Position numbers and translations under genes: made by a program. Shown here one piece after another: positions 72 to 21,204 of a stretch of DNA of 21,400 nucleotides (within the stretch, counting starts at the first letter, position 1; each line of letters opens with the position of its first letter). The notes under the pieces are model-generated. The model made no database searches. It was not told the origin of the DNA and worked only from the letters and a program-made list of their open reading frames with translations. Origin of the DNA: a virus; the IMG/VR virus record IMGVR_UViG_3300006751_000173, positions 1 to 21,400 of that record, one strand, 5' to 3'.

Positions 72-659
72 ATGGAATTAAGTGTTAAATCCCGCATTAA
101 TTGCGGCATTACTCCTTATATACATACAGTAATAGAATATATATACATACATATACATGCGACTTTTGTTGATATATGTATAAAAAATACACAGTACAGT
201 AAGCTAGAAGAAATTCCAGTCGAGGGAAAGATCTCATTTGAAACTCTCTGGGATTTTTACCACGCCCTATTCGCCAAACGTAGAGAGCGAAAAAAAGCAG
301 CCATGCAAAAATACTACAAGTTGACTGAAACACAACGCAATTGTTGTTTTATGCATATTTGCCATCAGTTCCTATTTTGGTGTTTTGATCAGAAAATAGC
401 ACTGCATTTCTTAGATTTAGATTTTCACAAGCTAAACCAACTCAAGAAAACCCTTGAGACGAAATACGTGCCCTTCTGCCGAACGTTTTTAGAAAACCTA
501 GACCCAGACGAGGGTAAAAATTATGACGACTTACAAGCCCCCTATGAGCGAATCAAACGTGTACAACATACATCCGGAAAACGTAGCCTATCATCCGAAT
601 ATGCACAAAAAGTCCGAAATGCCGGAATTGATCCCATTGCGGATAGTCTCCTCAACTAA
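72..659 (+). CDS. Putative replication-initiator-type protein (start uncertain)
   Basis: 195 codons if read from the ATG at 72. That ATG has no Shine-Dalgarno sequence, and the first ~45 residues (rich in I, Y and H) do not look like a folded domain, so the true start may be further in or the gene may be cut. From about residue 55 the pattern FETLWDFYHAL...KR...A...YYKLTETQR resembles the FxxFWxxYxxK...AxxxWxKL segment found in the C-terminal half of many phage replication initiator or primosomal proteins. That is a pattern match by eye only. The gene lies directly before the lambda-P-like gene and overlaps it by 137 bases in another frame, the position an O-like initiator would have. It could also be an unrelated hypothetical protein. 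Confidence 0.5.
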   Translation: MELSVKSRINCGITPYIHTVIEYIYIHIHATFVDICIKNTQYSKLEEIPVEGKISFETLWDFYHALFAKRRERKKAAMQKYYKLTETQRNCCFMHICHQFLFWCFDQKIALHFLDLDFHKLNQLKKTLETKYVPFCRTFLENLDPDEGKNYDDLQAPYERIKRVQHTSGKRSLSSEYAQKVRNAGIDPIADSLLN

Positions 660-1047
660 TTGTACTACTGAGGAGCTTACAGAGCGCTGTGATAAGGTTT
701 TTAATACGTTTAGGGGAATATATGCCCCAAGGTGGGAAAATGCTTTAAATCGATCAGAAACGGATTTTATATGCATTAGGAAAACTTGGATGTCAATTCT
801 AGCGCACTACTCTATCGAAATTATTGAAAAAGCTCTTCAAGATATGGTAGTTTCTGGCAAGCATGCTGAATTTTGGCCAACACCTATACAATTTAACCAA
901 ATATGTAGAGCTACGAAAAAAATAATGGTCGAAAATAACACAGTTGAACCATGTGACGTTGAACCATGTGACAAAGCCGTACCTATGCCAGAAGAAATGC
1001 GTAGTTATTTCAACAATATAGCAAAACAAAAGAAGGTGGAAAGTTAA
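523..1047 (+). CDS. Lambda replication protein P-like helicase-loader candidate
   Basis: 174 residues. The start ATG at 523 is preceded by GAGGG at a suitable distance. The central part (about residues 55-130) has the layout of the phage replication protein P family: a segment with VFNTFRGIYAPRWENAL, an R-x-x-W stretch (IRKTW) followed by a helix, and then WPTPIQFNQICR, which matches the W/F-x-PSP-x-EF-x-x-x-C motif near the end of these proteins. P proteins bind the host DnaB helicase and bring it to the phage origin. The N-terminal 45 residues lie inside the end of the preceding gene in another frame. A 15-bp tandem repeat adds the sequence VEPCDVEPCD near residues 141-150. The stop overlaps the next ATG (TAATG), which implies translational coupling. 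Confidence 0.6.
   Translation: MTTYKPPMSESNVYNIHPENVAYHPNMHKKSEMPELIPLRIVSSTNCTTEELTERCDKVFNTFRGIYAPRWENALNRSETDFICIRKTWMSILAHYSIEIIEKALQDMVVSGKHAEFWPTPIQFNQICRATKKIMVENNTVEPCDVEPCDKAVPMPEEMRSYFNNIAKQKKVES
943..972 (+). repeat. 15-bp perfect tandem duplication inside the P-like gene
   Basis: GTTGAACCATGTGAC occurs twice back to back (943-957 and 958-972). It keeps the reading frame and adds one VEPCD unit to the protein. It looks like a simple slippage duplication in a linker after the WPTP motif. Confidence 0.9.
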
Positions 1048-1274
1048 TGGAAAATGTACACGAAAAAATACCATTGATTACAAGGGTACAAAAGCTTGAA
1101 GATCAACTAAATAATGAGGTTGAGGGATTACAAAGGGGGCTGTTGGATATTATACAAATATTTATTGAAAAAAACCCCGACATGAAACTAGCCTTAGATA
1201 ATCATACGCAAAATATACAAATCAAGGAATTGTTAAAAAATAAAACCAATGGTCAGGAGGACACATTAGGATGA
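1047..1274 (+). CDS. Small coiled-coil protein of unknown function
   Basis: 75 residues. The ATG overlaps the stop of the P-like gene (TAATG) and follows AAGGTGG, a good ribosome binding site. Residues about 12-45 (ITRVQKLEDQLNNEVEGL and on) show hydrophobic residues at heptad-like spacing, so a short coiled coil or helical bundle is likely. No known motif is seen. Its place between the P-like gene and the resolvase suggests an accessory role in DNA replication or recombination, but that is only inference from context. Confidence 0.7.
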   Translation: MENVHEKIPLITRVQKLEDQLNNEVEGLQRGLLDIIQIFIEKNPDMKLALDNHTQNIQIKELLKNKTNGQEDTLG

Positions 1275-1441
1275 GTAAAATTTATAAAGCTTTAACAGAT
1301 TGTTCAGACTGTGGGGAAATGTTTGAGTTTGATTTCAATAAATCGATTAGAAACGAAAACGGTTTTATTTGCGAAGATTGTGCAAGAGTTTACACCGTGG
1401 TAAACTTAGATGACCTGGAGATGATTTATGACGGAAAATGA
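1271..1441 (+). CDS. Small zinc-ribbon protein
   Basis: 56 residues. The ATG overlaps the previous stop (ATGA) and follows AGGAGG. Two CxxC pairs, CSDC (about residues 11-14) and CEDC (about residues 34-37), are spaced as in a zinc ribbon, so one bound zinc ion is expected. Such tiny ribbons are common in phage early regions as DNA- or protein-binding modules. The partner is unknown. The C-terminus is acidic (NLDDLEMIYDG). The gene runs on into the next small gene, which starts inside its last codons. Confidence 0.75.
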   Translation: MSKIYKALTDCSDCGEMFEFDFNKSIRNENGFICEDCARVYTVVNLDDLEMIYDGK

Positions 1442-1592
1442 AAATCAAATAGTACATCTTTTAACTAGAAAAACTATGGTGGCATTAAACGATTGCGTGA
1501 AAACATTAAAAAAGTATTGTGATGTATTGTCAATATGGACTATCGCCAATAGTGCAGCTATTATTCTTTTGTTTTACTTGGTTTTAAAATGA
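1428..1592 (+). CDS. Small protein with one C-terminal membrane helix
   Basis: 54 residues, starting inside the end of the zinc-ribbon gene, with GGAG seven bases upstream of the ATG. The N-terminal 30 residues are polar. Residues about 33-53 (LSIWTIANSAAIILLFYLVL) form one clear membrane-spanning segment at the C-terminus, so it is probably a tail-anchored inner-membrane peptide with its body in the cytoplasm. No family is recognised. Its stop (TGA, 1590-1592) abuts the promoter of the resolvase gene, so it closes the upstream gene group. Confidence 0.7.
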   Translation: MTENENQIVHLLTRKTMVALNDCVKTLKKYCDVLSIWTIANSAAIILLFYLVLK

Positions 1593-1621
1593 TTGATTTT
1601 TAGTCAAAAATATGCTATAAT
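1593..1621 (+). promoter_or_regulatory. Sigma-70-type promoter for the RusA-like gene
   Basis: TTGATT (1593-1598), a 17-base spacer and TATAAT (1616-1621). The -10 box is a perfect consensus, the spacing is optimal and the -35 box matches four of six positions. Transcription would start near 1627-1630, only a few bases before the ATG at 1631, so the transcript would be leaderless or nearly so. Confidence 0.7.
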
Positions 1622-1630
1622 CATACTATT

Positions 1631-2083
1631 ATGTGTGATGCTACGGAAAGCAAACAAATCTACCTTCCTATATATATACAAAGAGGAAGAAAAAGATACT
1701 ATCTCAACCTTAACAGGTATCGTAACTGGCATTATAGACTTTCTAACGATCTCAAAATATCTTTCAAATCAACTATTAAATGCCAATTGAACTTTAGATT
1801 TGATCAAAAAATACAAATTTCGTATACTTACTACGCACCAGATAACAGAAAACGTGATCTAATGAACGTTATTGCTGTTGTAGATAAATTTTTTCAAGAT
1901 GCTATGACAGAGAATCACTGTATACCAACAGATGATACCGATACTGTTGTCAACGTATCTTGTCTATATGGTGGCGTAGACAAGAATAACCCTAGGATTG
2001 AAGCTAGCATTGCGCAAACAACATTTGACAGACCAAAAATTGACATTTGCGCTTCTGATAAAACTTTATTAAATAAATCATAA
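1631..2083 (+). CDS. rusA-like: RusA-like Holliday junction resolvase
   Basis: 150 residues. RusA enzymes are small Mg-dependent dimeric nucleases that cut four-way DNA junctions, and phages use them to resolve branched DNA before packaging. The fingerprint is in the middle: YAPDNRKRDLMNVIAVVDKF (about residues 68-87), then IPTDDTDTV (about 98-106). This corresponds to the RRRDLDN...D...DD catalytic region of RusA. D76, D85, D101 and D102 are present. The second aspartate of the RDLDN motif is replaced by Met (RDLMN), which may mark a subfamily. The N-terminal IYLPIYIQ...YYLNLNRYRNWHY pattern supports a start near 1631. No Shine-Dalgarno sequence precedes that ATG, and a consensus promoter ends 9 bases before it. 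Confidence 0.75.
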   Translation: MCDATESKQIYLPIYIQRGRKRYYLNLNRYRNWHYRLSNDLKISFKSTIKCQLNFRFDQKIQISYTYYAPDNRKRDLMNVIAVVDKFFQDAMTENHCIPTDDTDTVVNVSCLYGGVDKNNPRIEASIAQTTFDRPKIDICASDKTLLNKS

Positions 2084-2139
2084 CGTTAAGTGATGATTCA
2101 ACAAAACAACATTTAACATTTTCCAAAATAGGATTTAAC

Positions 2140-2433
2140 ATGAACAGTATAGAAAAGTGGATAGAAAGCAGACCAGAACCAATAAGATCTATTGCTAAAA
2201 TTATTAGACCTGGTCAACCTATTTATTGTGAGTGCTGTGGAAAAACGCGCTATGTTATTTCCTATAATGAAGGCACTGTAGAACCATTAATCGGAACTGT
2301 GAATAAATGGCCTGGAGATTTGACAGACGAGGAGTTTGAGGATGAATCAATACGTACATATACCAATGTTTCAGTGTACATCGACTTAAAAACCATGACT
2401 CTAAGGGATCAATTTTCTAATACTCTTTACTAA
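2140..2433 (+). CDS. Hypothetical protein with a CxxC motif
   Basis: 97 residues; the ATG follows AGGA at about seven bases. A CECC motif sits near residues 30-33, followed by an acidic stretch (DLTDEEFEDESIRTY, about 61-75) and a short C-terminal beta-like segment. A single Cys cluster is not enough to claim zinc binding in a monomer. The gene lies 13 bases before the TerS-like gene and is probably cotranscribed with it. No family is recognised. Confidence 0.7.
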   Translation: MNSIEKWIESRPEPIRSIAKIIRPGQPIYCECCGKTRYVISYNEGTVEPLIGTVNKWPGDLTDEEFEDESIRTYTNVSVYIDLKTMTLRDQFSNTLY

Positions 2434-2446
2434 TTAAGGAAATAAC

Positions 2447-3028
2447 ATGGAAGTATCGAACCAATATGTTGACGAAGCAGCAAAAGGAATTCTTGATTCT
2501 AGAGCTAAAAAGCGTTTTATTAATGCTGTAACCAAAGTAGGGCGGCCAACTGAATATTGTGAAAAACTTTGCACTGATTTTTTAGCGCATCGTGCAATTG
2601 GCAAAACTATTGAACAATCACTGCTTGAAGTGGGTATTTCTGATACAACTTATTATAGATGGTTGCAAGAAAAGCCAGAATTTCGGGGTGTAGCTAAAAA
2701 GGGCAAGTATTTAGCCAAAGCTTTTTGGGATGAAATGGCTGAAGACAATGTCGACAATCGTAGCTTTAACTTTCTGCTCTTCGAGAGCCAATATAAGCGC
2801 CGTCATAACTGCTCAGAGTCAGCACCAGTAGATTGCCCTGGATTCTCAGAAGAAAATAGCGATGTTGTCAACATCCAGGCCATTTTTAAATCAATTGCAA
2901 ATAAGCAGGTTTCGCCTGATGATGCCGCCAAACTAATGTCCTTGATTAAAACAAAACAAGAGGTTACAGTAATGCAGGAAATCTTGCCTCGGTTAGATCA
3001 ACTGGAGCATCAAGTTAAGAATAATTAA
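2447..3028 (+). CDS. Small terminase-like DNA-binding protein (TerS)
   Basis: 193 residues with an AAGGA ribosome binding site. GRPTEY (about residues 32-37) followed by a helix-turn-helix (SLLEVGISDTTYYRWLQEKP, about 59-78) and a basic end (QYKRRH) is the layout of many phage small terminase subunits: a GRPTKY lead, an HTH of the ISxxTxYRW type, then oligomerisation helices. TerS recognises the packaging site and loads the large terminase. The last 30 residues (from about 164) form an amphipathic helix (VMQEILPRLDQLEHQV) that may mediate oligomerisation or large-terminase or portal contact. These last codons are duplicated at 3325-3418. No large terminase follows, so a phage transcription factor with the same fold is the alternative. 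Confidence 0.6.
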   Translation: MEVSNQYVDEAAKGILDSRAKKRFINAVTKVGRPTEYCEKLCTDFLAHRAIGKTIEQSLLEVGISDTTYYRWLQEKPEFRGVAKKGKYLAKAFWDEMAEDNVDNRSFNFLLFESQYKRRHNCSESAPVDCPGFSEENSDVVNIQAIFKSIANKQVSPDDAAKLMSLIKTKQEVTVMQEILPRLDQLEHQVKNN

Positions 3029-3043
3029 TCACCTATAGGGGGG
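2935..3043 (+). repeat. Direct repeat, copy 1 (TerS 3' end plus leader of next gene)
   Basis: This 109-bp stretch covers the last 30 codons of the TerS-like gene, its stop and the G-rich ribosome binding site of the next gene. It matches 3325-3433 at 100 of 109 positions by my count. The homology stops abruptly just before an internal ATG of TerS. Confidence 0.9.
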
Positions 3044-3051
3044 GGGATGTA

Positions 3052-3339
3052 ATGACAGAATTAACCGATAAAGAAGTCGAAATAAACAAAAAAGCAAACG
3101 ATCTTCATGAATACGCAAAAAAGCTAGATCGTGATGTTTTAGCTTTTTTGTTTGCTAATATTTTTTCATCGTTAGGATGTCTGGACGCAAAGCTATACTA
3201 CGGTGTTTTTGTACATTTATCTGAAATGCTCAACTTTAAAGGTAGATTTACAGGTATAAATAGCTTCCAATCATTGATGAACGTTTACAGCGATGCGTTA
3301 AATAGTTATCGAGAGGAGTTTTGCAATGACATTGATTAA
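3052..3339 (+). CDS. Hypothetical protein, cargo of the duplicated unit
   Basis: 95 residues. The ATG follows a run of nine G (3038-3046), which acts as a strong but unusual ribosome binding site. The protein is mixed alpha-helical with a charged N-terminal helix (MTELTDKEVEINKKANDLHE) and a hydrophobic middle (DVLAFLFANIFSSLG, about residues 29-43). It could be a soluble helical protein; the hydrophobic part is too short and mixed for a confident membrane call. It is flanked by the two copies of the TerS tail, so it looks like an inserted moron-type gene. Its last codons and stop lie inside repeat copy 2. The function is unknown. Confidence 0.7.
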   Translation: MTELTDKEVEINKKANDLHEYAKKLDRDVLAFLFANIFSSLGCLDAKLYYGVFVHLSEMLNFKGRFTGINSFQSLMNVYSDALNSYREEFCNDID

Positions 3340-3433
3340 GACCAAACAAGAGGTTACAGTAATGCAGGAAATCTTGCCTCGGTTAGATCAACTGGAGCAT
3401 CAGGTTAAAAATAACTAATCACCTGTAAGGGGG
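3325..3433 (+). repeat. Direct repeat, copy 2 (TerS tail plus leader)
   Basis: The second copy of the stretch at 2935-3043, offset by 390 bases, with nine differences, all substitutions. It includes a G-rich ribosome binding site (AAGGGGG) that now serves the gene at 3440. The unit from 3044 to 3433 therefore has the form small gene, TerS tail, leader. Confidence 0.9.
3326..3418 (+). CDS. 30-residue peptide identical in design to the TerS C-terminus
   Basis: A short open frame with ATG at 3326 and GAGGAG about eight bases before it. It encodes the last 30 residues of the TerS-like protein; the only change is Ser to Thr at position 2. Five of the six altered codons are synonymous, as expected if the peptide sequence has been kept by selection, either here or in the phage the copy came from. 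The start overlaps the end of the 95-residue gene in another frame, so translation may be coupled. A free copy of an oligomerisation or docking helix could join TerS rings or act as a competitor. It may equally be a silent leftover of recombination. Confidence 0.5.
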   Translation: MTLIKTKQEVTVMQEILPRLDQLEHQVKNN

Positions 3434-3439
3434 TAAATA

Positions 3440-3700
3440 ATGTCAAAAATAATAAAACTAGAAGGCGAAGCACACACAAAAATGCTTGAGTTATGGGGAA
3501 ATTTAGAGCAAGCAAAATCTGCATTAAAAACTACTGAGAGAAAACGAGACCTAGCAAGGAATATGTTTTGGGTACATGTTGAAGAAAGTAACCCAATACT
3601 TGCTACAGATGGTGTCCAATTTTTAGAAAAAACAGGAGAGTTTAAAATATTTGAGGATGATGAATTAAATGAGTGGATGAATAATAATCTGGCTTTCTAA
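3440..3700 (+). CDS. Hypothetical helical protein
   Basis: 86 residues with a strong ribosome binding site (AAGGGGG, then AAATA before the ATG). The N-terminal half is a charged helix (KMLELWGNLEQAKSALKTTERKRDLARNM split by few breaks, about residues 14-43). The second half is acidic (FEDDELNEWMNNN). The shape suggests a small helical binding protein or inhibitor, but no family is recognised. It directly follows the duplicated TerS tail. Confidence 0.7.
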   Translation: MSKIIKLEGEAHTKMLELWGNLEQAKSALKTTERKRDLARNMFWVHVEESNPILATDGVQFLEKTGEFKIFEDDELNEWMNNNLAF

Positions 3701-3715
3701 TGGATGGATAGCATT

Positions 3716-3847
3716 ATGGAAATAAAGTTTAATTTAGGAGGTGTATGCTTGGTAATTGTTTTAACATTCTGGGCATGTACTGCGATACACGCACATTATA
3801 GTATTAAAGAAAAGCATTCTATTTGTAAGCTAGTAAAAAATGATTAG
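3716..3847 (+). CDS. Possible 43-residue membrane peptide
   Basis: The frame runs from ATG 3716 to TAG 3847. A hydrophobic segment, VCLVIVLTFWACTAIHA (about residues 10-26), is followed by a polar, basic tail, as in a single-pass membrane peptide. The best ribosome binding site, AGGAGG, lies inside this frame and would serve a TTG start at 3749, giving 32 residues. The Cys after FWA does not fit a standard lipobox. Codon use is similar to the neighbours. It is plausible but unconfirmed. Confidence 0.45.
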   Translation: MEIKFNLGGVCLVIVLTFWACTAIHAHYSIKEKHSICKLVKND

Positions 3848-4010
3848 TTCAACAACGCTGTACTGGTTTACGAGACTGGATGATTTCATTCTATCAGCTG
3901 CTAAAGAGTAATCAAAAAGCTTAGCGTGGTGGCGACTATGAGTTAGCTGCATATTATCAAAAATTGATGGAAGATCATGTACATCTTGAGAAAAAAAGAA
4001 TGGGGATGAA
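3848..4010 (+). other. Gap with possible gene remnants
   Basis: There is no convincing gene here. A 23-residue frame starts at 3840 (MISSTTLYWFTRLDDF) and stops at 3911 without a ribosome binding site. A protein-like stretch (GDYELAAYYQKLMEDH) runs to 4013 after a TAG and has no good start. The two pieces could be what is left of one or more decayed small genes. Confidence 0.3.
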
Positions 4011-4397
4011 ATGAGCTTTAAAAAATCTATTGAAGGTTATAAAAAATTTAACCTTGAGCGAGGACATGCATATTTAAATGCAAATATAAAAAGTGATGTG
4101 GGAAAGCATGAAGTGTACATATATTGTCATGATGAGCATGATTTTGATTTGATAGAATCATATGGATATATGTCAAACGCATCAGTGAAATTATTTGATT
4201 TGGTATTAGTTGCAACTCACCAAGGAGCTAAACTATATTTCTATGATATACAGGATCAATTGGTTGATTTCAAAAATAGGTATTATCATAAGTATAATCG
4301 AAAAAAAATATTAGATTTTCTTTTAAAATTAGAAAAAAAGACTGGGTATAAATTACCCACTGAAATAATTAATAATTTTAAAGAGATGCAAGAATGA
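4011..4397 (+). CDS. Hypothetical protein
   Basis: 128 residues; the ATG follows GGGGATGAA, a usable ribosome binding site. It is rich in Lys, Tyr, Phe and Asp with no membrane segment. The middle (SVKLFDLVLVATHQGAKLYF, about residues 58-77) looks like beta strands, and the C-terminal 40 residues like basic helices (YHKYNRKKILDFLLKLEKKT). It shares an ATGA overlap with the next gene, so the two are probably made together. No family is recognised. Confidence 0.7.
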   Translation: MSFKKSIEGYKKFNLERGHAYLNANIKSDVGKHEVYIYCHDEHDFDLIESYGYMSNASVKLFDLVLVATHQGAKLYFYDIQDQLVDFKNRYYHKYNRKKILDFLLKLEKKTGYKLPTEIINNFKEMQE

Positions 4398-4603
4398 AGT
4401 GGATAAGCGTAGAGGATAGGGTTCCTTTTATGTACCAGCGTGTTCTTGTAGCTGTGATAGAATGTGATAAAATTCAAGAGCACCCTAACATTCAAATTTT
4501 AGTTTTTCTTGATAAAGATACTACTTATTTTGAAAAATATAATTTATGGTTGCCAATATGGGATAAGGTAACCCACTGGATGCCGCTTCCGGAGTTGCCA
4601 TGA
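4394..4603 (+). CDS. DUF551 domain protein
   Basis: 69 residues. It begins KWISVEDRVP and ends VTHWMPLPELP, which are the two ends of the DUF551 domain (WISVEDRLP...VTHWMPLPEPP). That domain is common in enterobacterial phages and prophages and often occurs in small proteins of the accessory region. Its function is unknown. The length is normal for a single domain. The start is coupled to the previous gene by ATGA, and the stop overlaps the next start (CCATGACA), so it belongs to a three-gene unit (4011-4881). Confidence 0.85.
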   Translation: MKWISVEDRVPFMYQRVLVAVIECDKIQEHPNIQILVFLDKDTTYFEKYNLWLPIWDKVTHWMPLPELP

Positions 4604-4881
4604 CACATAAAGATATTTTAGATGATTTGTTAAACTATTATAATTTTTTTACTCCAGATGGAAAGTTTTTTCCTAAAAATGAAGCTGATAAGATTGCATG
4701 CATGGCACTCCTATCACGAGCTATTTATATAGCAAACAGCTGGTTTAAAAAAGAGGTAACTTATGATGCATACCTTGTAAAATACTCTAAATCAGGATTT
4801 AAAGGGAATATTTCAGAAGATTTTTATAGTATTAATAAGATTGGATATTTTGAATTTGACTATAAGGTAGTAATAGAATAA
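4600..4881 (+). CDS. Hypothetical protein
   Basis: 93 residues; the ATG overlaps the DUF551 stop and follows GGAG at about seven bases. The N-terminal half is helical (ILDDLLNYYNFF and CMALLSRAIYIANSWF), and the C-terminal half is probably strands (ISEDFYSINKIGYFEFDY). No known motif is seen. It is the last gene of the tightly joined trio; an 88-base gap follows, without a clear promoter or terminator. Confidence 0.7.
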   Translation: MTHKDILDDLLNYYNFFTPDGKFFPKNEADKIACMALLSRAIYIANSWFKKEVTYDAYLVKYSKSGFKGNISEDFYSINKIGYFEFDYKVVIE

Positions 4882-4969
4882 TAAAAAAACTTGAAATAAC
4901 AGGCTATAAATGTTAGTTTAATGTTCAATAGTGGTAGCTAATGGATTAGTTATCAAGCAAGGAGCAGAA

Positions 4970-5131
4970 ATGAAAAAGACAGGGAAAGTCGATATCAAAA
5001 AGGTTCGTAAAGCGTTAAGCATCGCACGAAATTCAAAAGATATAGATCTAAAGAAAATGCTAGGTGGTTTAATGGATAGCAATTCTGCTAACCGTTCACT
5101 AGCTAATCGTATTGTTCACCCATCAAAGTAA
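4970..5131 (+). CDS. Small basic protein
   Basis: 53 residues from the ATG at 4970, chosen because AAGGAG lies seven bases upstream; the frame is open back to a GTG at 4931, which has no such site. The N-terminal third is Lys-rich (MKKTGKVDIKKVRKALSIAR), then LKKMLGGLMDSNSANRSLAN. The net charge is clearly positive, so it may bind nucleic acid or an acidic partner, but there is no recognised fold. Confidence 0.65.
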   Translation: MKKTGKVDIKKVRKALSIARNSKDIDLKKMLGGLMDSNSANRSLANRIVHPSK

Positions 5132-5141
5132 AGGAAATACT

Positions 5142-5378
5142 ATGCATGTTGATGTTGTAGATTATGTTATTGATTTAACAAAAGTAATTGCGGTTGGTGC
5201 TAATAAAAGCAAGCTATATAAAAATGACACTACTTATACAGTATACTTTAGTTGTAATACTTTAGAGGTAAGAGAATCCGTATTTCCACGTGAAAAATTT
5301 ATTAATGACTGGCTAGGTAATACAAAGTCTAATTCTAAACCACAAAAAACTAAAACCAAAACCAAAAATAAGGAGTAG
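5142..5378 (+). CDS. Hypothetical protein with a Lys/Thr tail
   Basis: 78 residues from the ATG at 5142, which follows AAAGGAAA; an upstream TTG in the same frame lies inside the previous gene and has no such site. The body (HVDVVDYVIDLTKVIAVG, then YTVYFSCNTLEVRESVF) looks like a small beta-rich domain. The last 16 residues are a low-complexity basic tail (QKTKTKTKNKE) made by a repeated AAAACC motif in the DNA. The function is unknown. Confidence 0.65.
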   Translation: MHVDVVDYVIDLTKVIAVGANKSKLYKNDTTYTVYFSCNTLEVRESVFPREKFINDWLGNTKSNSKPQKTKTKTKNKE

Positions 5379-5380
5379 TT

Positions 5381-5527
5381 ATGAAGTCTGTGTCTGCCCG
5401 CATTCTTGAAGATAGCAAACCTAAAGAAATCAAAAATGAAACTGTAACCACTCACCCAGCTATGCCAGATATTAAACTAGGTGTAGATGATAACAATAGC
5501 AAACAAAAGAATGTTTATAAATTTTGA
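5381..5527 (+). CDS. Small polar protein
   Basis: 48 residues with an AAGGAG site five bases before the ATG, two bases after the previous stop. The sequence is polar and probably disordered (LEDSKPKEIKNETVTTHP and on) with no motif. The strong ribosome binding site is the main evidence that it is translated. Its stop overlaps a TTG start of the next frame (TTGA). Confidence 0.65.
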   Translation: MKSVSARILEDSKPKEIKNETVTTHPAMPDIKLGVDDNNSKQKNVYKF

Positions 5528-5796
5528 GTGCATTAAGCCTTAAACGTATATTGGCTAAGCTTGAAAGGAAGATACATGCTAAATTCACAGAAAATGTGGA
5601 GTTGATAATAGCTACAGATGAGCAAGACTTAAAAAAACAAATGGATTTGTTATGCGAAGCATCACCAAATGGGTTAAAAGTGTATGTGATACTATTAAGC
5701 GATTTTATAAAGTCATCTCATACAGAAAAGCATTGTCAGCCTGTGACACAGCAGGATATAGAGAAGCATATGTATGCTTTATCTCTACTAAACTAG
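5524..5796 (+). CDS. Possible hypothetical protein from a TTG start
   Basis: 90 residues if started at TTG 5524, which overlaps the previous stop as TTGA. There is no Shine-Dalgarno sequence, so it would rely on coupling. The product looks protein-like: a basic N-terminal helix (LKRILAKLERKIHAKF), a core with strands (NVELIIATDE, LKVYVILLSDF) and an ordinary composition. It fills a region that would otherwise be empty (5528-5651), but its last 145 bases overlap the better supported pre-portal gene in another frame. Either both are real, or this one ends in an overlap that arose later. Confidence 0.45.
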   Translation: MSALSLKRILAKLERKIHAKFTENVELIIATDEQDLKKQMDLLCEASPNGLKVYVILLSDFIKSSHTEKHCQPVTQQDIEKHMYALSLLN

Positions 5797-6146
5797 TATG
5801 GGTGCAATACTTTTTAAAACCTGGTTTCCAGCATTGTATAATTATTTACAAGCTAGAATCAGGTGCTTTATTAGTAAATTTTAAGGTTAATAAAGCAGAT
5901 ATTATAACGTTAACAGACTCAGCTTATGATAGATACTTAGCTATATGTTTAAACAAAGGGGGGCATATCCTAAAGGTACGAAACCGGTCGCCAAAAGCTA
6001 TCACTGGTTTCGTGCCCACTTTATGGAAGCCAAATAATTGTGTTTTACTTGTTAAAAACATGTTAGGCATAAAAGCTAATACCGTATGGACGCCGTATCA
6101 GCTTTACAAGCACATCAAGGAAAACTACGAATACAAGGAGGTATAA
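5652..6146 (+). CDS. Conserved pre-portal podovirus protein
   Basis: 164 residues. I recognise the pattern as one often found just before the portal gene of podoviruses: an N-terminal basic helix, KLVWVQYFLKPGFQHC (about residues 47-62), a strand-rich middle, then NNCVLLVKNMLGI (about 128-140) and TVWTPYQLYKHI (about 143-154). H61, C62 and C130 are in conserved-looking spots, and the spacing could suit a papain-like or NlpC/P60-like fold, but that is speculation. The ribosome binding site at 5652 is weak (GGA). The first 48 residues overlap the preceding frame. The stop is followed one base later by the next start. Confidence 0.6.
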   Translation: MRSITKWVKSVCDTIKRFYKVISYRKALSACDTAGYREAYVCFISTKLVWVQYFLKPGFQHCIIIYKLESGALLVNFKVNKADIITLTDSAYDRYLAICLNKGGHILKVRNRSPKAITGFVPTLWKPNNCVLLVKNMLGIKANTVWTPYQLYKHIKENYEYKEV

Positions 6147-6147
6147 A

Positions 6148-6333
6148 ATGAGTGGTGGAACAGATCCAGCGTTACAGCAACAAGAGCAGCAAACTGAAGC
6201 TGAAAATAAGAAACTACAAGCACAAGAAGCATTACAAAATACAAAAACACAAAAAGACCAGTTAGAAAACATGCGCAGGATGCGCGGTGGTTCTAATGGT
6301 ACAGGTAGTGGTGGAAATACTACACTAGGTTAA
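6148..6333 (+). CDS. Small Gln-rich, Gly-tailed protein before portal
   Basis: 61 residues with an AAGGAGG ribosome binding site. The first 45 residues form a charged Gln-rich helix (LQQQEQQTEAENKKLQAQEA), then RRMRGGSNGTGSGGNTTLG forms a flexible basic and glycine tail. Many podoviruses encode a small protein of this shape, ending in RxxxG...TxLxG, directly before portal. Some are virion or assembly proteins, comparable in place to T7 gp7.3. The exact role is unknown. Confidence 0.6.
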   Translation: MSGGTDPALQQQEQQTEAENKKLQAQEALQNTKTQKDQLENMRRMRGGSNGTGSGGNTTLG

Positions 6334-6354
6334 AATTAGTACAAGGATGTACAG

Positions 6355-7968
6355 ATGATCGATCCTAAGCGCATAAAGGAAAGATACGCAAAAGCAAAAG
6401 CAAAAGCTGAGTTATGGTATAGCAAATTACAAAAGTGCTATGAGTTAACTATGCCTAATAAAGCTAACTTTACTATAAAGAAACAGACTCCTGGCCAGCA
6501 AAAAACACAATATCTTTATGACTCTACAGCAGCTCTCGGTCTTTCTAAGTATGCAGCCAACCTGCAAAACCTTTTATTTGGAGTTAAAGACTGGGCTAAA
6601 TTAGTTCCTGGAAAACTGGTTAAAGAAGGTAAGACTAATATCGACTTAAGCCAAGCAGAAAAGCAGTGTGAAGACTATACAGAACTGTTTTTTGAAAAGC
6701 TTAATCAATCAAATTTTCAAATGGCAGTTTATCAGTGCATCATGGAAATGGGTATTTCTACTGGTGTGCTGCTAGTTAACGAAGGAGACTTTAAGCAACC
6801 CTTTAAGTTTACAGCTATTCCATTACACGAGGTATCAATCGAAGAAGGTCCAGACAACACAATACAGAATGTGTATAGAGAGTACAAAATGACTGCATCT
6901 GTCATTGCGCAAACTTGGCCAGAATCAACAGTTAGCAAAGACCTAGAAAATAAGCTAAAGAAAAATCCAGCAGAAGAAGTTTCATTATTAGAAGGAACTG
7001 TATTTGATCCTTCTGCACCCAAAGGGAAACAGTATTGCTATTTTGTCATGGAAAAAGATAAGGATGGATTTCTTTTTTATGAAGAGCGTTCTTATTCACC
7101 ATGGATCGTGTTTAGACCAAAAGTTATTGCGGGTGAGTTATTTGGTAGGGGTATTATCTATGACTTACTTCCATCAATTAAAGAACTTAACTTAACAATG
7201 GAATACTTATTAAGATCAGCTAGCTTTAATGCAAATCCAATCTTTATGGTACAAACTGGATCTGAAATAAACCCATATACAATGCGTTTAAATCCAGGTT
7301 CAATCGTCCCAGTACAGCCAGGACCTTCACAAAATGCCATATCACAATTAAGTATTACATCAAATGCAAATGAAATGTTGGCATTACGCGAAGAGTTGCG
7401 TGGAACGATCCAAGAATCACTTAATCTTAATCCAATTGGTGATACGCCCACAGCTGGTGACCCATCGCAAACAGCTACAGAAGCAAATCTACGTAATCAA
7501 GAATACATAAAGCAAAACCAATCTATGTATAACCGCCTTCAATATGAGCTTAACCAGCCATTGTTCAAAGTATGCTGGCATATTCTATACCGGTTGGGAA
7601 TGGTGCCAGCACCAGTTATAGACGGTCAACACTTAGCAGTCGAGTTTAACTCACCTGTACAAGATATGGCTAGACAGGAAGATATACAAAAAGCAGTGCA
7701 AGCATCTAGCATTATTCAGCAGATACTTGGGCCACAACTTGGTGAGTATGGTGTTATGTTTGGTATGGATGTAACAGAGGTTCCAGAATTTGTGCTGAAA
7801 AAGCTTGGTGTTAGTTATGACTTATCAAGAGATGCTTTAGGCAAAGCTAAAATGCTTCAGGCTGTGCAAGCCTTAACAGGTCAAAATCCACAGCAACCAC
7901 AAGGTATGCAACCCAGTCCAGCTGCCCAACCTCAACCAAATAAACAGCAATCATTTGTAGGTGTATAA
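6355..7968 (+). CDS. Portal (head-tail connector) protein, T7 gp8-like
   Basis: 537 residues, almost the same length as T7 gp8 (536). Twelve copies form the ring through which DNA is packaged and ejected. The N-terminus (RIKERYAKAKAKAELWYSKL, then CYELTMP about residues 28-34), YLYDSTAALGLSKYAANLQN (about 53-72), the later PWIVFRP and LFGRGIIYDLLPSIKELN segments, and SQTATEANLRNQE (about 368-380) are typical of T7-like connectors. The end is Gln/Pro-rich and probably disordered (about 505-533). The ATG at 6355 follows AAGGA. A Bbp19-like gene and scaffold follow, the usual head order. It is the strongest family call on this strand. Confidence 0.93.
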   Translation: MIDPKRIKERYAKAKAKAELWYSKLQKCYELTMPNKANFTIKKQTPGQQKTQYLYDSTAALGLSKYAANLQNLLFGVKDWAKLVPGKLVKEGKTNIDLSQAEKQCEDYTELFFEKLNQSNFQMAVYQCIMEMGISTGVLLVNEGDFKQPFKFTAIPLHEVSIEEGPDNTIQNVYREYKMTASVIAQTWPESTVSKDLENKLKKNPAEEVSLLEGTVFDPSAPKGKQYCYFVMEKDKDGFLFYEERSYSPWIVFRPKVIAGELFGRGIIYDLLPSIKELNLTMEYLLRSASFNANPIFMVQTGSEINPYTMRLNPGSIVPVQPGPSQNAISQLSITSNANEMLALREELRGTIQESLNLNPIGDTPTAGDPSQTATEANLRNQEYIKQNQSMYNRLQYELNQPLFKVCWHILYRLGMVPAPVIDGQHLAVEFNSPVQDMARQEDIQKAVQASSIIQQILGPQLGEYGVMFGMDVTEVPEFVLKKLGVSYDLSRDALGKAKMLQAVQALTGQNPQQPQGMQPSPAAQPQPNKQQSFVGV

Positions 7969-7972
7969 TACT

Positions 7973-8263
7973 ATGCTAGATTTCGATTCTAATATTGACA
8001 ATATAATAAATTTGAGAGAGTCACAGAAGAATGAACAAGAAAAACATATAAAGCATTTAAATAAGCTTGCTTACGAGGCATTTGAGGTAAACCCAGCAGG
8101 TAAAGAACTTCTATCACACTTTATAGCTGCGATTATGATTCCTTTAGAAGAAGAGCAGCTAAAGGATTTACGATTCCATATGGGAACTAAACAGCCATTT
8201 AAGCGCTTTCTACAAATGATATCTGATCACAAAATGAATTTAACGGGGGTAAATAATGGATAG
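7973..8263 (+). CDS. Bbp19-like small phage protein between portal and scaffold
   Basis: 96 residues from the ATG at 7973; the frame opens at a GTG inside the portal end, which has no ribosome site. The middle (YEAFEVNPAGKELLSHFI, about residues 34-51) and the end (QPFKRFLQMISDH) resemble the Bbp19-type phage proteins, where one sequence motif reads F-x-x-x-x-G+-x-L-x-x-L and the end carries a R-x-F-I/L block. These are usually encoded between portal and scaffold, as here, and their function is not known. It overlaps the scaffold start by eight bases. Confidence 0.55.
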   Translation: MLDFDSNIDNIINLRESQKNEQEKHIKHLNKLAYEAFEVNPAGKELLSHFIAAIMIPLEEEQLKDLRFHMGTKQPFKRFLQMISDHKMNLTGVNNG

Positions 8264-9095
8264 TGAAGTAACAACAGAATCAAATATGCAACCAACATTT
8301 AATGCGGAAGCATCCCAGGTTAGCTCTACCCACAGTGAGCAAACAACTTCAGCTGATAACACGCCTGCCGATCCCCCCCAGAGTGAGAACGCAGAGACTA
8401 TATCAGCTGAAGATCCTAATTTGCCAGATTATGTAATCAAAGGCACTTTTGGAAGCGAATCAGATCAAGCGAAAGCATACCCTGAACTTCAGAAATCAAC
8501 TAGCAAGAAAATACAACAATTAAGTGAGAAGCTTAAAGGTTTTACTGGTGCGCCCGAGGATGGTTACACATTTGAACTATCTAATGAGCTGACTGAATCT
8601 GGTTTTGAATTAGATCAAGACAATGCATATTTCAAAGATTTTGCTGAGCAATGTAAAAAAGCCGGTATGAACCAAGAAACATTTCAAAATCAAATGAGTA
8701 TTGCAGCTAATTATATTCATAACTCTGAACAAGTTAGAGTTGATTATGTAAACAATGCCATCGAGAAACAAATACAACAAGATTTGGATACGATGTCAAA
8801 AGAAACTAAAGATAATTTTGTAAATAATGTTAATGTGGCTAGTAATATTAAAGGGGTTACTGCTGAAGAATTAAATCACTTCGCAGATAATCTGGATACA
8901 TCAATGATTGAGACATTTAATAAATTTATGTCTGATAGAAGAAATACAAGCGTACCGGTTAACACATTAGCATCATTAGATTCTGCCTCATCAAGACGGG
9001 AAGAATTAGCACGTATACATAAGATGCCACATGGTCCTGATAGGCAAGCAGCGCAAGATGCTCTTAATGAACGTTATCGCAAAGCTAGTTATTGA
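8256..9095 (+). CDS. Scaffold / capsid assembly protein, T7 gp9-like
   Basis: 279 residues (T7 gp9 has 307). It is acidic overall with a disordered Ser/Thr/Glu-rich N-terminus (about 1-55). IKGTFGSESDQAKAYPELQK (about residues 61-80), GAPEDGYTFEL (about 97-107) and KDFAEQCKKAGMNQETFQNQ (about 126-145) match the standard pattern of podovirus scaffolds, ending in a basic, helical tail (SRREELARIHKMPHGPDRQA, about 246-265). Scaffold guides capsid assembly and leaves before DNA enters. The ribosome site is GGGGG. In T7-like phages the capsid gene should follow on the same strand; here the next genes come from the other direction, and the stops overlap by seven bases. Confidence 0.85.
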   Translation: MDSEVTTESNMQPTFNAEASQVSSTHSEQTTSADNTPADPPQSENAETISAEDPNLPDYVIKGTFGSESDQAKAYPELQKSTSKKIQQLSEKLKGFTGAPEDGYTFELSNELTESGFELDQDNAYFKDFAEQCKKAGMNQETFQNQMSIAANYIHNSEQVRVDYVNNAIEKQIQQDLDTMSKETKDNFVNNVNVASNIKGVTAEELNHFADNLDTSMIETFNKFMSDRRNTSVPVNTLASLDSASSRREELARIHKMPHGPDRQAAQDALNERYRKASY

Positions 9096-9169
9096 TTCAT
9101 CATATAGATGATGCCAATAGCAGCTAGTACTACAACAAATAGTAGTTCTGAGACTAAAAACCAGATCAT
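9089..9169 (-). CDS. 26-residue membrane peptide at the end of the lysis genes
   Basis: A very short gene with strong signals: AAGGAG about eight bases before the ATG, and an ATGA overlap with the holin stop. The product is almost one membrane span (WFLVSELLFVVVLAAIGI, about residues 3-20) with a short tail YMMNQ. It may be a second holin-like or antiholin peptide, or another lysis accessory, judged only by place and shape. Its stop codon lies inside the last codons of scaffold on the other strand. Confidence 0.6.
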   Translation of the reverse strand: MIWFLVSELLFVVVLAAIGIIYMMNQ

Positions 9170-9624
9170 TTTTTTCTCTCCTTGCTAGGTCCAAAGTAGT
9201 ACGTTACTGTTTGAATAAACACAGTACTTAATGAACCGATTAATAGATCAATTATTTCACTATTCCTTGGTGCAATAGAATCAAAGAACAATAAAAACAC
9301 GACAGCAAAAAAACCAAGCATGACAGATATTGTTATAACGGATGGCATCTTATCTTTTAAAACAAGCTCACGATTTCTAGCATCGGCTCGATCTTTTTGA
9401 TGAATTGATTCAATATTTACCTTATAAGTATAGTCTAAATCTTTTATTTTGACTATTTGCTCTTGAGAGGCGCTATTTAGTGCGTTTTCTAGCTCCATAT
9501 CAGATGGATTATCTTTACCAGGTAAAAGTATAGATGCAATTGTTTTAGTCGCTACAGCGCCAACAGGGCCTCCAATGAGACCCCCGATGACTGGTGCGAA
9601 CTTTGATATAATATCTTTAAGCAT
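9166..9624 (-). CDS. Holin, 3TM gene-transfer-agent type
   Basis: 152 residues from the ATG at 9624, chosen because GGAAG precedes it and it overlaps the lysozyme stop by eight bases; the frame is open further upstream but without a site. Residues about 5-34 form a glycine-rich hydrophobic helix (PVIGGLIGGPVGAVATKTIA), and two C-terminal spans lie at about 96-114 and 124-143, ending in TYYFGPSKERKK. The linker has the typical QKDRADARNREL. This matches the family of three-span holins first named from gene transfer agents. Holins open the inner membrane at lysis. The neighbouring lysozyme-like gene fits. Confidence 0.8.
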   Translation of the reverse strand: MLKDIISKFAPVIGGLIGGPVGAVATKTIASILLPGKDNPSDMELENALNSASQEQIVKIKDLDYTYKVNIESIHQKDRADARNRELVLKDKMPSVITISVMLGFFAVVFLLFFDSIAPRNSEIIDLLIGSLSTVFIQTVTYYFGPSKERKK

Positions 9625-10102
9625 TGGCACTTCCGAAAAGAACACGCATGGCTCTTTGTTTAGCTTGATAGATACTCGTCTTATCAGGGTTTGGACCCCA
9701 GAATTTATGGTAGTATTCCACCATGCCATCAAAATCATGTATTTCAGGTATGGGTTCTGGGAATCTAGCGTAGTGAATACGCGCCATAGCAGTAGCTAGC
9801 TTCATATCCCATATAAGATGATCAGCTTCGGGTGGTGATCCAAATCCAGTTATCTTTAATAGCTTATCTCTAACACCTTTGCGGAAGCGTAAGTTATTTT
9901 CCCAGTTATCATAATAGGTAGCTGGTTCCATTTGATAAACACCCATTGCAGGGCCATCATACTTTTGCATAATAAAGGTACCAAGCTCGCTTTCAACTGC
10001 CATTGTAATAATCAACAATAGAACTGCATTCTCGGAATACATACCCAACTCCTTAAGAGTGGGTATAATTATATGCTTTTCTAACTGTAAACGATTTATC
10101 AA
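9617..10102 (-). CDS. Lysozyme-like muralytic enzyme (endolysin candidate)
   Basis: 161 residues from a TTG at 10102, five bases after GGAGG and overlapping the fibre stop as TTGA. The family is recognisable by MAVESELGTF (about residues 34-43, with the likely catalytic Glu37), GPAMGVYQMEPATYYDNW (about 50-67) and ATAMARIHYARFPEP (about 105-119): the layout of lysozyme-like/transglycosylase proteins of short-tailed phages. No signal peptide is seen, so it would need the holin just downstream. Whether it is a free endolysin or a virion enzyme cannot be told from sequence. A second possible start (ATG 10042, AAGGAG six bases before it) would give a 141-residue form. Confidence 0.65.
   Translation of the reverse strand: MINRLQLEKHIIIPTLKELGMYSENAVLLLIITMAVESELGTFIMQKYDGPAMGVYQMEPATYYDNWENNLRFRKGVRDKLLKITGFGSPPEADHLIWDMKLATAMARIHYARFPEPIPEIHDFDGMVEYYHKFWGPNPDKTSIYQAKQRAMRVLFGSANA
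10041..10066 (-). promoter_or_regulatory. Hairpin over an internal ribosome site of the lysozyme-like gene
   Basis: On the minus strand, ATACCCACTC pairs with GAGTTGGGTAT with one bulged base, giving a ten-pair stem with a five-base loop. The right arm holds part of AAGGAG and abuts the ATG at 10042, so the structure could hide an internal start. It lies inside coding sequence, so chance is possible. Confidence 0.35.
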
Positions 10103-11202
10103 GCATACCTCCAAGCATTTGTCCCTGGTACGGGATTGTCTGCTAATGTAGATGGTGTAATTGGTGTATTAGCATCCCAAGCAGCTTGTGCAGTTGCAGT
10201 TGCTTCACCTAGATAGCTTTCTCGGATAAATATATATAATGCTTCATATGCATCTAAGGGATGAGTTGCCCCAGATGCAGCAGATCCAATTGAATGAGTA
10301 GCATTAACTTGAATCCATGATCCAGATGGATAAGGCTGTGTAGGAACACCAGCTATAAAATCACCAACTCTAAAGGTGCGTGTATTATCTAGCTGAGTCT
10401 GGACGCTAACACTACTACTACCATTCCAGTAAGTAATATAACCAGCACCAGAATCAGATATAGTTGCATCAGTTGTAAAATTATTTATCATTCCTTGAAT
10501 ATTTGTATCTTCAGATGCAGTTATATTCCAACATGGAATGTTTGCTGCTCCAGAAGATGATAAAGATGTAGCTGCTAAGAATATATTATCAAGTTCATTT
10601 TGAACTGTTGTATTACTATCTTTATAATATCCAACTAATGATGCACCTTGAGGTGTAGATGTAGATGCTAATTCAGTTTTTAAGGCTGCGGCACTTCCTG
10701 TTGACGCAATAGGGACACTTACCCAGGCAGTACCATTCCATGCCATCACAGTATTTATGCCACCAGATGGGGCAACAGGCAATGGAAATGTAAGCATAGC
10801 TTCCGTTAATGTACCACTTGTTGTTAGTAATGTTTTTTCATAAGTTACAGCTAAGTTATTTAGCTTATAATCAGCATCAATATTTTCTAGGTAGAAGTTA
10901 TTATTAATTAGGTTTAAGTCGGTTTCAGTAATAGCTGCACCTGGGTTGAATTGTCCTGGTTGATCAATTATTATTGATCTGAATATAAACACTGTTATCC
11001 CATCATCTGGAGCTGTGGAAAATGTCAACACATATGAGGCATCAGTAATTGTGCCAATTGTATAACCGGTTGTTTGTAGAACAGTTCCAAAGTATACGGA
11101 TACATCAGTACTCGCTTGAATCCATTGTGGAATTGTATATTCAGTTGCACTTGCAGCTGTAACAAATGAATAGGCAACCTGTGTTGCTGGTGTAGTTGGC
11201 AT
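10099..11202 (-). CDS. Tail fibre protein with T7 gp17-like N-terminus
   Basis: 367 residues with a very strong site (AAGGAGG). The N-terminal ~125 residues follow the phage T7 tail-fibre head domain: ASATEYTIPQWIQASTDVSV (about 16-35), then strands, then QPGQFNPGAAITETDLNLIN (about 80-99) and DADYKLNNLAVTYEKT. This domain fixes the fibre to the tail. The rest has repeated beta-like parts (TMAWNGTAWVSVP, YITYWNGSSSVSVQTQLDNT) and no chaperone or enzyme domain. At 367 residues it is shorter than T7 gp17 (553), so it may be a short fibre or an adaptor for another protein coded elsewhere. A 38-base gap separates it from the gene above it. Confidence 0.75.
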   Translation of the reverse strand: MPTTPATQVAYSFVTAASATEYTIPQWIQASTDVSVYFGTVLQTTGYTIGTITDASYVLTFSTAPDDGITVFIFRSIIIDQPGQFNPGAAITETDLNLINNNFYLENIDADYKLNNLAVTYEKTLLTTSGTLTEAMLTFPLPVAPSGGINTVMAWNGTAWVSVPIASTGSAAALKTELASTSTPQGASLVGYYKDSNTTVQNELDNIFLAATSLSSSGAANIPCWNITASEDTNIQGMINNFTTDATISDSGAGYITYWNGSSSVSVQTQLDNTRTFRVGDFIAGVPTQPYPSGSWIQVNATHSIGSAASGATHPLDAYEALYIFIRESYLGEATATAQAAWDANTPITPSTLADNPVPGTNAWRYA

Positions 11203-11240
11203 TTTAACTCCTCCTTGAGTTATGTTTATTTATTATACTA

Positions 11241-13748
11241 CTATTGTACTAAAGGTGTAACCCCATACTTTTGATGTAATTGATTCATTTGAGACTCATA
11301 ATTTTCATTATGAGATAAAGCAAGTCCATAATTTAAAGCGATCTGTGCTAATGGGGTATTAATTACAGGAACATTTTTAGTTTTTAAACTAGATAACATT
11401 ATACTAGACAACTTCTTCTTTTGATGCTTATCGCCGAAAACACTACCTGTCATTTCTTGTATAATACCTAAAAGGCTTGTTGCAACACCAGCACCAGGGC
11501 CTAATATTTGGCTTGATAATTTATTAGGTGATCCTGTTAAAGCACCGATTGCATCACCATACATGCCTAATGAACTAAGCATCGAATGTGTCCACATATA
11601 CTCTGCATTAGCACGTTCTTTTGGATTGTTACTAAATAAACTAGGCATACTTGTATTTGAAACTAGGTGTTTAGCACGGTCAGATATATAACTAGCTAAC
11701 ATTATTCCAGATATTGTTGATATTATATTTTTATAAGTTTTAAATTTTTTAAATCCTCCACCTAAAGCTATATCTCTATGAAGTATATTTCTCATGAAAC
11801 CTATAGCGTATGATTTAAATTGAAACATTAAACCTGTTAGTGGTCCATGGCTACCTTGGAATGCTCTTTGCGATATGTCAGAAGATGGAATAGTGAACCG
11901 ATATGAATCATGGTACATACTTAATGCTTTCTGATAAAGTTGATCTCTTGATAAATCAGTTTTCTTCATGTCATCATTAGAAGCATCTAACACAGTATCA
12001 GGGGATAGGTAACTGTTTTTATCACCAAGCTTTTGGTGTCCTTTTCTCCATATATCCCATTCACCTGGTGTAAAGCCATAAGTATTTAAAGTATTTTTTG
12101 TAGCATCATCCAACTTATCAAAGCTAAGGTGAGCACGACGAGCCAGTGCATTACCCCAACCAGCAAATGACGCCTTCCTCATTAATTTATCCCAGTGCTT
12201 TAAACCATTCCAATTCATTTGAGTATTAACAGCTTTAGACATTTTACCACTAAAATCACTCATCTCAGAACTAAATCTATGGCTACCAACGAAGTGATTG
12301 CTTAATACGCCCATTGTTTGGTAAAACTCTTTTCTGTTATCATCAGGTATCATTGATTTAAAAATAGTATTGAATTTTTCTCCCAGTGAAGCATCAAATT
12401 GGGTGGACATCGTGCGCCATTGATTAGGTACATCTCCAAAAACATTTAATGTGCTTAAACCCATTTTGACTAAGATAGTTGCTGATTGTATGTTATGAAC
12501 AAAAGATCCTAACCAAGTATCTGAATCACTACGCATCTCACCTTTTAAATAACGCATCATTGTTTTCATATGCTTAACTGCTTTTAGGGTAGGGGCATAG
12601 GCTTTAGGGTTCTTTTCAAGTATGGATTTTGTTAATTTATTTAATGTTTGCTCTGGGTTTGCGCCAAATCTATCAGTTAAAGCCAAGCTGTGAGCAGTTG
12701 ATCGAGCATCACGATAGATACTATCTAAAACATTACCAGCACCATAATTTTCTTGATAGTCAACCCATGATCCACCATCTTTGAAAAATAAATGACGCTC
12801 TGACCTTTGAATACGATCAGCTAGTGAAAATCCTTTTGTTTCGCCCTCACGAGGGGTAATAATTTTGTCAAAGGTTTCACGAAGAGCATCTTTTACTTCT
12901 GAATCATTATCCCAATCAATGCCCAGCAAAGATAATCTTTTGTCTAATCTAGGTTTGATAAAATCATGCCATTTATTAAATGCAATATCCATTTTTGATA
13001 CATGTAATTCTTTTGAAGATAGTTTTGTAACATAGTCTAAACCATGCTTAGCTAACATAGCCTTATGTATACCTTTGGGATTCATAATCCTCATTACATC
13101 ATGATATTGCCTTGATACACGTCCTGCTAATTCGGTTACTGTTAGGCCATGTTTGCGCATTAGTTTAACTGTATCATGATTATATTTTGTTATAACACGA
13201 GCAATTTTACCTGTTAGGTTATCTGTATAATTTTCACTTAAAACTTGATCAATAACATCTCTTTGATTTTTTTTATCTTTTAGAAACTTAAATCCTTCCA
13301 ATTTTTTAAGTTCAGGTTCTATAGATCCTTTGCTTTTCAATATAGTGCTCAAAAACGCTGACTCAGAAGAATCAAGATTCTGTCTAGCTCCTATGCCTTT
13401 ATGATCTCTACCTGAAAACCAAACACTACTTAATTTTTTAGCATCGTAGTTATGTTCAACCATTTCTTGATTTCTTTTAGCATAAGCAAGAAGATTTAGA
13501 CGAGCATTTTTTTTATCCTCATCAAGTGCTTGCTTCATTTTCTCAGTAACGACATCAGATGCTTTATCTAAAGCAGATTGTGTATCTAGAGTCTGGTCGC
13601 TGCGCAGTAATTTTCTAGCTTCATGTTTTATTGTATTTACAACTTTTTTAACGCCATCCTTATTCATATCTTTAGTAAGATCAGCTAAATCGCCAACTTT
13701 ATCACTCTTTATAAAATTATATATATTTTTTACACACTTATTGCTCAT
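11241..13748 (-). CDS. Large internal virion (ejection) protein, gp16-like part 2
   Basis: 835 residues from the ATG at 13748, which forms ATGA with the preceding stop and has AGGGA upstream; a longer frame to 13769 lacks a site. It is largely helical and basic. SERHLFFKDGGSWVDYQENY with GAGNV (near residue 320) and GLMFQFKSYAIGFMRN (near residue 640) are patterns I know from large podovirus virion proteins thought to enter the host cell wall with the DNA. A weakly hydrophobic stretch follows the second motif (IISTISGIMLASYIS). The position after the gp14- and gp15-like genes fits gp16. T7 gp16 has 1318 residues in one chain; here the two parts sum to about 1441. Confidence 0.65.
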   Translation of the reverse strand: MSNKCVKNIYNFIKSDKVGDLADLTKDMNKDGVKKVVNTIKHEARKLLRSDQTLDTQSALDKASDVVTEKMKQALDEDKKNARLNLLAYAKRNQEMVEHNYDAKKLSSVWFSGRDHKGIGARQNLDSSESAFLSTILKSKGSIEPELKKLEGFKFLKDKKNQRDVIDQVLSENYTDNLTGKIARVITKYNHDTVKLMRKHGLTVTELAGRVSRQYHDVMRIMNPKGIHKAMLAKHGLDYVTKLSSKELHVSKMDIAFNKWHDFIKPRLDKRLSLLGIDWDNDSEVKDALRETFDKIITPREGETKGFSLADRIQRSERHLFFKDGGSWVDYQENYGAGNVLDSIYRDARSTAHSLALTDRFGANPEQTLNKLTKSILEKNPKAYAPTLKAVKHMKTMMRYLKGEMRSDSDTWLGSFVHNIQSATILVKMGLSTLNVFGDVPNQWRTMSTQFDASLGEKFNTIFKSMIPDDNRKEFYQTMGVLSNHFVGSHRFSSEMSDFSGKMSKAVNTQMNWNGLKHWDKLMRKASFAGWGNALARRAHLSFDKLDDATKNTLNTYGFTPGEWDIWRKGHQKLGDKNSYLSPDTVLDASNDDMKKTDLSRDQLYQKALSMYHDSYRFTIPSSDISQRAFQGSHGPLTGLMFQFKSYAIGFMRNILHRDIALGGGFKKFKTYKNIISTISGIMLASYISDRAKHLVSNTSMPSLFSNNPKERANAEYMWTHSMLSSLGMYGDAIGALTGSPNKLSSQILGPGAGVATSLLGIIQEMTGSVFGDKHQKKKLSSIMLSSLKTKNVPVINTPLAQIALNYGLALSHNENYESQMNQLHQKYGVTPLVQ

Positions 13749-18598: not shown

Positions 18599-18607
18599 AG
18601 TTTTTCC

Positions 18608-20614: not shown

Positions 20615-20623
20615 GACAAATCC

Positions 20624-21187: not shown

Positions 21188-21204
21188 ACTCATCCTTAAG
21201 CAAG

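Follow-up and report, generated by a model that had tools for sequence, protein, structure and literature searches.

A Direct Repeat at the 3' End of the Terminase Small Subunit Gene

In the window (the whole stretch of 21,400 nucleotides that was analyzed), a 95-codon ORF comes after the gene for a terminase small subunit (TerS), and a second TerS end comes next. The positions of these features are collected in Table 1. A scan of the 21.4-kb window found a single substantial direct repeat, 109 nt long at 92% identity, and a match of this kind is not due to chance. The two repeat copies flank the 95-codon ORF, which together with one tail copy and its leader makes up a unit of 390 bp.

Table 1. 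Features at the 3' end of the TerS gene (L004, sister contig; L005, outgroup)
Feature	Position	Strand	Basis
TerS gene, 193 aa	2447..3028	+	PHROG terminase small subunit models phrog_309 (2.4e-7) and phrog_1482 (1.2e-6), matched at 26-95
Repeat copy 1: TerS 3' end, stop, and leader with the G-run that forms the ribosome site of the ORF at 3052	2935..3043	+	direct-repeat scan, 92% to 3325-3433
95-aa ORF (cargo) of no known family, with its stop codon inside copy 2; missing in both L004 and L005	3052..3339	+
GAGGAG: Shine-Dalgarno match of copy 2 that also encodes Glu-Glu in the overlapping 95-aa ORF	3313..3318	+
Repeat copy 2: tail opening with ATG, its stop codon, and a leader whose AAGGGGG is the ribosome site of the gene at 3440	3325..3433	+	repeat scan and anti-Shine-Dalgarno pairing
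Free-standing copy of the last 30 TerS residues plus stop, MTLIKTKQEVTVMQEILPRLDQLEHQVKNN	3326..3418	+	ORF list, codon comparison
59-nt core, identical in copy 2, copy 1 (partner 2954-3012), and L004	3344..3402	+	sequence comparison
Gene directly 3' of TerS in L004, 86 aa, no known family	3440..3700	+
Junction sequences, TTTTGCAATGACATTGATTAAG and AATAATTAATCACCTATAGGG

Repeat copy 1 takes in the last 31 codons of TerS (30 residues and the stop), and the repeat starts one base ahead of an internal ATG of that gene. The repeat is longer than the peptide that it encodes, extending 15 nt beyond the stop codon and reaching the ribosome site of the next gene. As judged from anti-Shine-Dalgarno pairing, a strong ribosome site stands at the end of each copy, that of copy 1 belonging to the 95-aa ORF and that of copy 2 to the 86-aa gene. 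The copies differ at nine positions, all of which lie within the 50 flanking nucleotides at the two ends of the repeat and none in the central 59 nt. An identical run of 59 nt has a probability of p = 0.006 when nine differences are placed randomly over 109 nt. Such a core without differences, with all nine in the flanks, is expected where copies recombine.

The protein encoded by the 95-codon ORF had no significant match, to nucleases or otherwise, in Pfam or PHROGs, and neither a relative nor a donor phage of the ORF was found in IMG/VR, the GTDB genomes, or the GenBank phages. Its structure model had a mean pLDDT of 50.1 and was unfit for a fold search. The leader of the ORF holds a run of nine G residues (3038-3046); slippage could alter the length of this run and hence its spacing to the start codon. 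A long imperfect hairpin with A-rich and T-rich arms (3062-3173; z = -2.07) occupies the 5' part of the ORF, and it matched no Rfam family above threshold.

Among GenBank phages, likeness to TerS was confined to the N-terminal half and was found with a TerS of Vibrio phages, and no near DNA match to the window was present. A TerS profile search of the GTDB genomes returned none. The structure model of TerS was poor (mean pLDDT 50.9) and likewise unfit for a fold search. Residues 126-190, in the C-terminal part, match phrog_9747, a family of unknown function, at 5.1e-6; this family may represent the TerS tails of other phages.

A Nearly Identical Contig Lacks the 390-bp Unit

The IMG/VR contig IMGVR_UViG_3300025096_000496 (L004; 10,177 nt) is co-linear with window positions 177-10743. 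Like the window record, it is a metagenomic contig. Outside the repeat region, the two differ by a single SNP, at 7191, in about 10 kb. L004 is without exactly 390 bp, a length equal to the repeat spacing and made up of the 95-aa ORF and one tail copy. The direct repeats of the window thus surround a gene that is dispensable, the unit being missing in L004, as would be expected of cargo bounded by recombination. Also expected of such cargo is an empty-site relative with one hybrid tail, and L004 is one. Left of the core, its single TerS end agrees with copy 1 throughout; right of the core, it agrees with copy 2 throughout, and the match to copy 2 continues through the leader and the 86-aa gene. 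The switch from copy 1 to copy 2 falls within the identical core. One crossover in the core would convert the window arrangement into that of L004, and the reverse exchange with a donor would give the opposite.

An Outgroup with a Single Tail

A more distant relative, L005 (IMGVR_UViG_3300006916_000031, a 30.7-kb record), has a portal protein 77% and a TerS 68% identical to those of the window. L005 has one TerS tail and different genes after TerS, and the 95-aa ORF was not found in its 30.7-kb record. Because of these three features, the single-tail state is probably older at some depth. On the same comparison, the stretch after TerS is taken to be variable within this phage group. The small ORFs that follow TerS in the window (3440-4960) are of unknown family and do not occur in L005, which has other ORFs there, about 500 nt.

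Three of the sites at which the copies differ were polarized by L005 (2941/3331, 2950/3340, and 3019/3409). At all three, the L005 base was that of the resident side, i.e. of copy 1 left of the core and of copy 2 right of it, and the derived base was on the side of the unit. This polarity, seen at three sites only, weakly favors the entry of a diverged segment over decay of a duplicate in place. It is likewise weakly favored that L004 has kept the older state and that the unit came from a diverged phage; a deletion out of a two-copy ancestor is nearly as likely. Recent neutral decay of a duplicate formed in place is disfavored, as the copies have nine differences in 109 nt versus one SNP in 10 kb between the contigs, with zero in the 59-nt core.

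The Free-standing Peptide ORF and Its Synonymous Changes

An earlier note on this DNA, made from the sequence alone, had described copy 2 as an ATG-started ORF of 30 residues with its own ribosome site, and the ORF list indeed contains this ORF. The GAGGAG motif was also found ahead of its ATG, at a spacing of seven bases and not the eight given. The predicted anti-Shine-Dalgarno pairing for the ATG at 3326 is -8.6 kcal/mol, a value equaled or bettered by 14 of the 927 ATGs in the window. In the comparison with the TerS end (2936-3028), codons 2, 5, 6, 26, 28, and 30 differed, involving seven bases. Codon 2 is TCC in TerS and ACA in the free copy (Ser to Thr), and the remaining five codons carry synonymous third-base changes, in agreement with the earlier count of five synonymous changes plus two in a single codon (Ser to Thr). 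The ACA of codon 2 is located at the edge of homology and repeats the AATGACA present at the start of the 95-aa ORF (3051-3057). It could be a feature of the junction rather than a substitution.

About 20% of the possible single-base changes are synonymous, and all five of the single-change codons were synonymous in the observed set, which is unlikely without purifying selection. Where this selection acted is a separate matter. Codons 26, 28, and 30, i.e. three of the five synonymous changes, fall in the right half of copy 2, which is the real TerS end in L004. Specific to the free copy are codons 5 and 6, both synonymous, together with the Ser/Thr codon, and these are too few for a test. Because the right half of copy 2 ends a true TerS in L004, selection on TerS ends would suffice for the synonymous excess, which appears better explained in this way than by selection on the peptide.

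The preferred reading of the earlier note, selection on the free peptide, is thus not supported, given a sister phage that lacks the peptide and has one SNP in about 10 kb. The roles suggested for such a peptide, tuning of TerS or blocking of rival phages, are not supported for the same reason. Its alternative, that selection acted while this copy was the end of a true TerS, fits better, since three of the five synonymous sites lie in the TerS gene of L004.

IMG/VR was searched with degenerate DNA patterns for QEVTVMQEI and IKTKQEVT, and no further free-standing tail was found. The pattern matches were L004, L005, and L006 alone; L006 matched by chance and had no TerS similarity outside the pattern. 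The peptide is not kept as a free-standing gene in the relatives, the tail being single in both L004 and L005. The 30-residue peptide is probably translatable, as a by-product, and would be without function.

A Probable Gene-gain/Loss Event at the TerS End and Competing Explanations

We consider it likely that a gene was gained or lost at the 3' end of TerS and that copy 2 is what this event left behind, a scar of recombination between duplicated ends. A unit of 390 bp, consisting of the 95-codon ORF and one TerS end with its leader, would have been placed between TerS and the gene that follows. With the TerS end, the stop, and a ribosome site present in both copies, TerS would remain whole with or without the unit, and each neighboring gene would retain a ribosome site in both states. 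Removal of the unit would proceed by homologous recombination between the repeats, and insertion by the opposite exchange, with a donor in which the ORF is present. The synonymous pattern would come from selection on TerS ends. We infer that recombination and not assembly lies behind the difference between the window and L004, and the direction of the event, gain or loss, is likewise deduced. Against the scar, no donor phage with the ORF was found in IMG/VR, the GTDB genomes, or the GenBank phages, and copy 2 starts just one base ahead of an ATG that is in frame and has a good ribosome site, more than is expected of a random breakpoint.

This ATG also belongs to the case for a functional free TerS-tail peptide, a 30-residue helix made from 3326 that binds TerS rings or the terminase large subunit (TerL) and tunes packaging or blocks that of relatives. 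The ATG is in frame, its anti-Shine-Dalgarno pairing is among the best 14 of the 927, and the copy has one amino acid change and no stops or frameshifts. The TerS tail is predicted to be helical at 174-191, in a poor model. The C-terminal regions of TerS bind TerL in lambda and P22 (PMC9611059), and in P22 TerS residues 140-162 bind the N terminus of TerL (PMC9611059), so that a decoy is conceivable. The peptide is, however, missing from the all-but-identical phage L004, copy 2 has just two synonymous changes of its own, no second free-standing copy was found in IMG/VR, and the bases of the ribosome site also serve as codons of the 95-aa ORF that overlaps it. A function of the peptide is accordingly unlikely, and less likely than gene gain or loss. 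The 95-aa ORF might instead be a mobile gene that, like a free-standing homing gene, promotes its own spread into TerS ends; the half-converted tails would then be tracts of co-conversion flanking a break in the resident tail. Its presence or absence at an exact site and the fact that both copies carry unit-specific sequence on their inner side would be in line with this, and co-conversion of flanks is typical of the free-standing endonucleases of T4 (PMC2988022). But homing normally leaves no duplicated target, and the ORF has no match to a nuclease or to any other family in Pfam or PHROGs; we regard a self-spreading gene as quite improbable.

An assembly artifact, in which the two-copy form alone is natural and L004 was misjoined across the identical core, is very unlikely. 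Fifty-nine identical bases do fall inside the k-mer range of metagenome assemblers, but L004 otherwise matches perfectly to either side of its junction and the outgroup L005 is independently one-tailed. The two-copy form of the window is not explicable in this manner, since the assembly would have had to invent the 95-aa ORF as well as both hybrid flanks. The unit as a competition cassette, in which the orphan ORF and a translatable TerS-tail decoy impede the packaging of co-infecting relatives and which moves between phages via the TerS tail, is highly improbable. A site-specific integrative element was also considered and rejected, 390 bp being too small for an integrase.

Comparison with Known Systems

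Cargo placed between boundary sequences that recombine is familiar from phages, and the present locus, read as gene gain or loss at a duplicated gene boundary, follows the same logic. The promoter-stem-loop cassettes (PeSLs) of T4-type phages, as cited in PMC4503421, involve gene gain and loss at repeated boundaries. Going by that citation, they resemble the present locus in having cargo ORFs between copies of a short recombinable boundary while essential neighbors are left intact, but here the coding 3' end of TerS, together with a ribosome site, forms the boundary. Neither repeat copy showed a promoter-like or terminator-like site as would be expected of a PeSL. In cyanophage S-PM2, a spontaneous deletion of the ORFanage removed about 9.5 kb (PMC4503421). 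There, too, orphan ORFs are present in one form and missing in an otherwise near-identical form of the phage, although the segment here measures 390 bp against about 9.5 kb and repeats are unmentioned in PMC4503421.

Segmental amplification in T6 by SegB and UvsX/UvsY (PMC13096335) is similar in that short stretches of likeness located at gene ends recombine, which shifts copy number and truncates a gene copy. It differs in yielding a tandem array under selection, whereas the window holds a single flanked orphan ORF and no recognized endonuclease. The free-standing homing endonuclease genes of T4-like phages (PMC2988022) share with the unit a small gene present or absent between conserved genes and converted flanks; here, the target end is duplicated and a match to a nuclease family is lacking. 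The nuclease domains sought (GIY-YIG, HNH, and LAGLIDADG) were not found in the 95-aa ORF by Pfam or PHROGs.

Gain or loss of a phage gene has here been caught between two genomes that are almost identical, and the interval of exchange is exactly visible. An extra gene can thus adjoin an essential packaging gene without breaking it. A caution also follows: when a free-standing fragment of a gene shows an excess of synonymous changes, the fragment itself need not be under selection.

Two further observations concern gene arrangement in this phage group. Tail and internal virion genes of the window (9166-21193) are located on the minus strand, opposite to TerS and portal; they include tail proteins at 18608-20614 and 20624-21193 and a virion protein of phrog_684 at 11241-13769 (minus strand). 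In L005, a 38-nt direct repeat of 87% identity (1701-1738 and 2436-2473) spans the leader and first codons (ATGCAAAAC) of two adjacent minus-strand ORFs, a further repeat at a gene boundary within this phage group.
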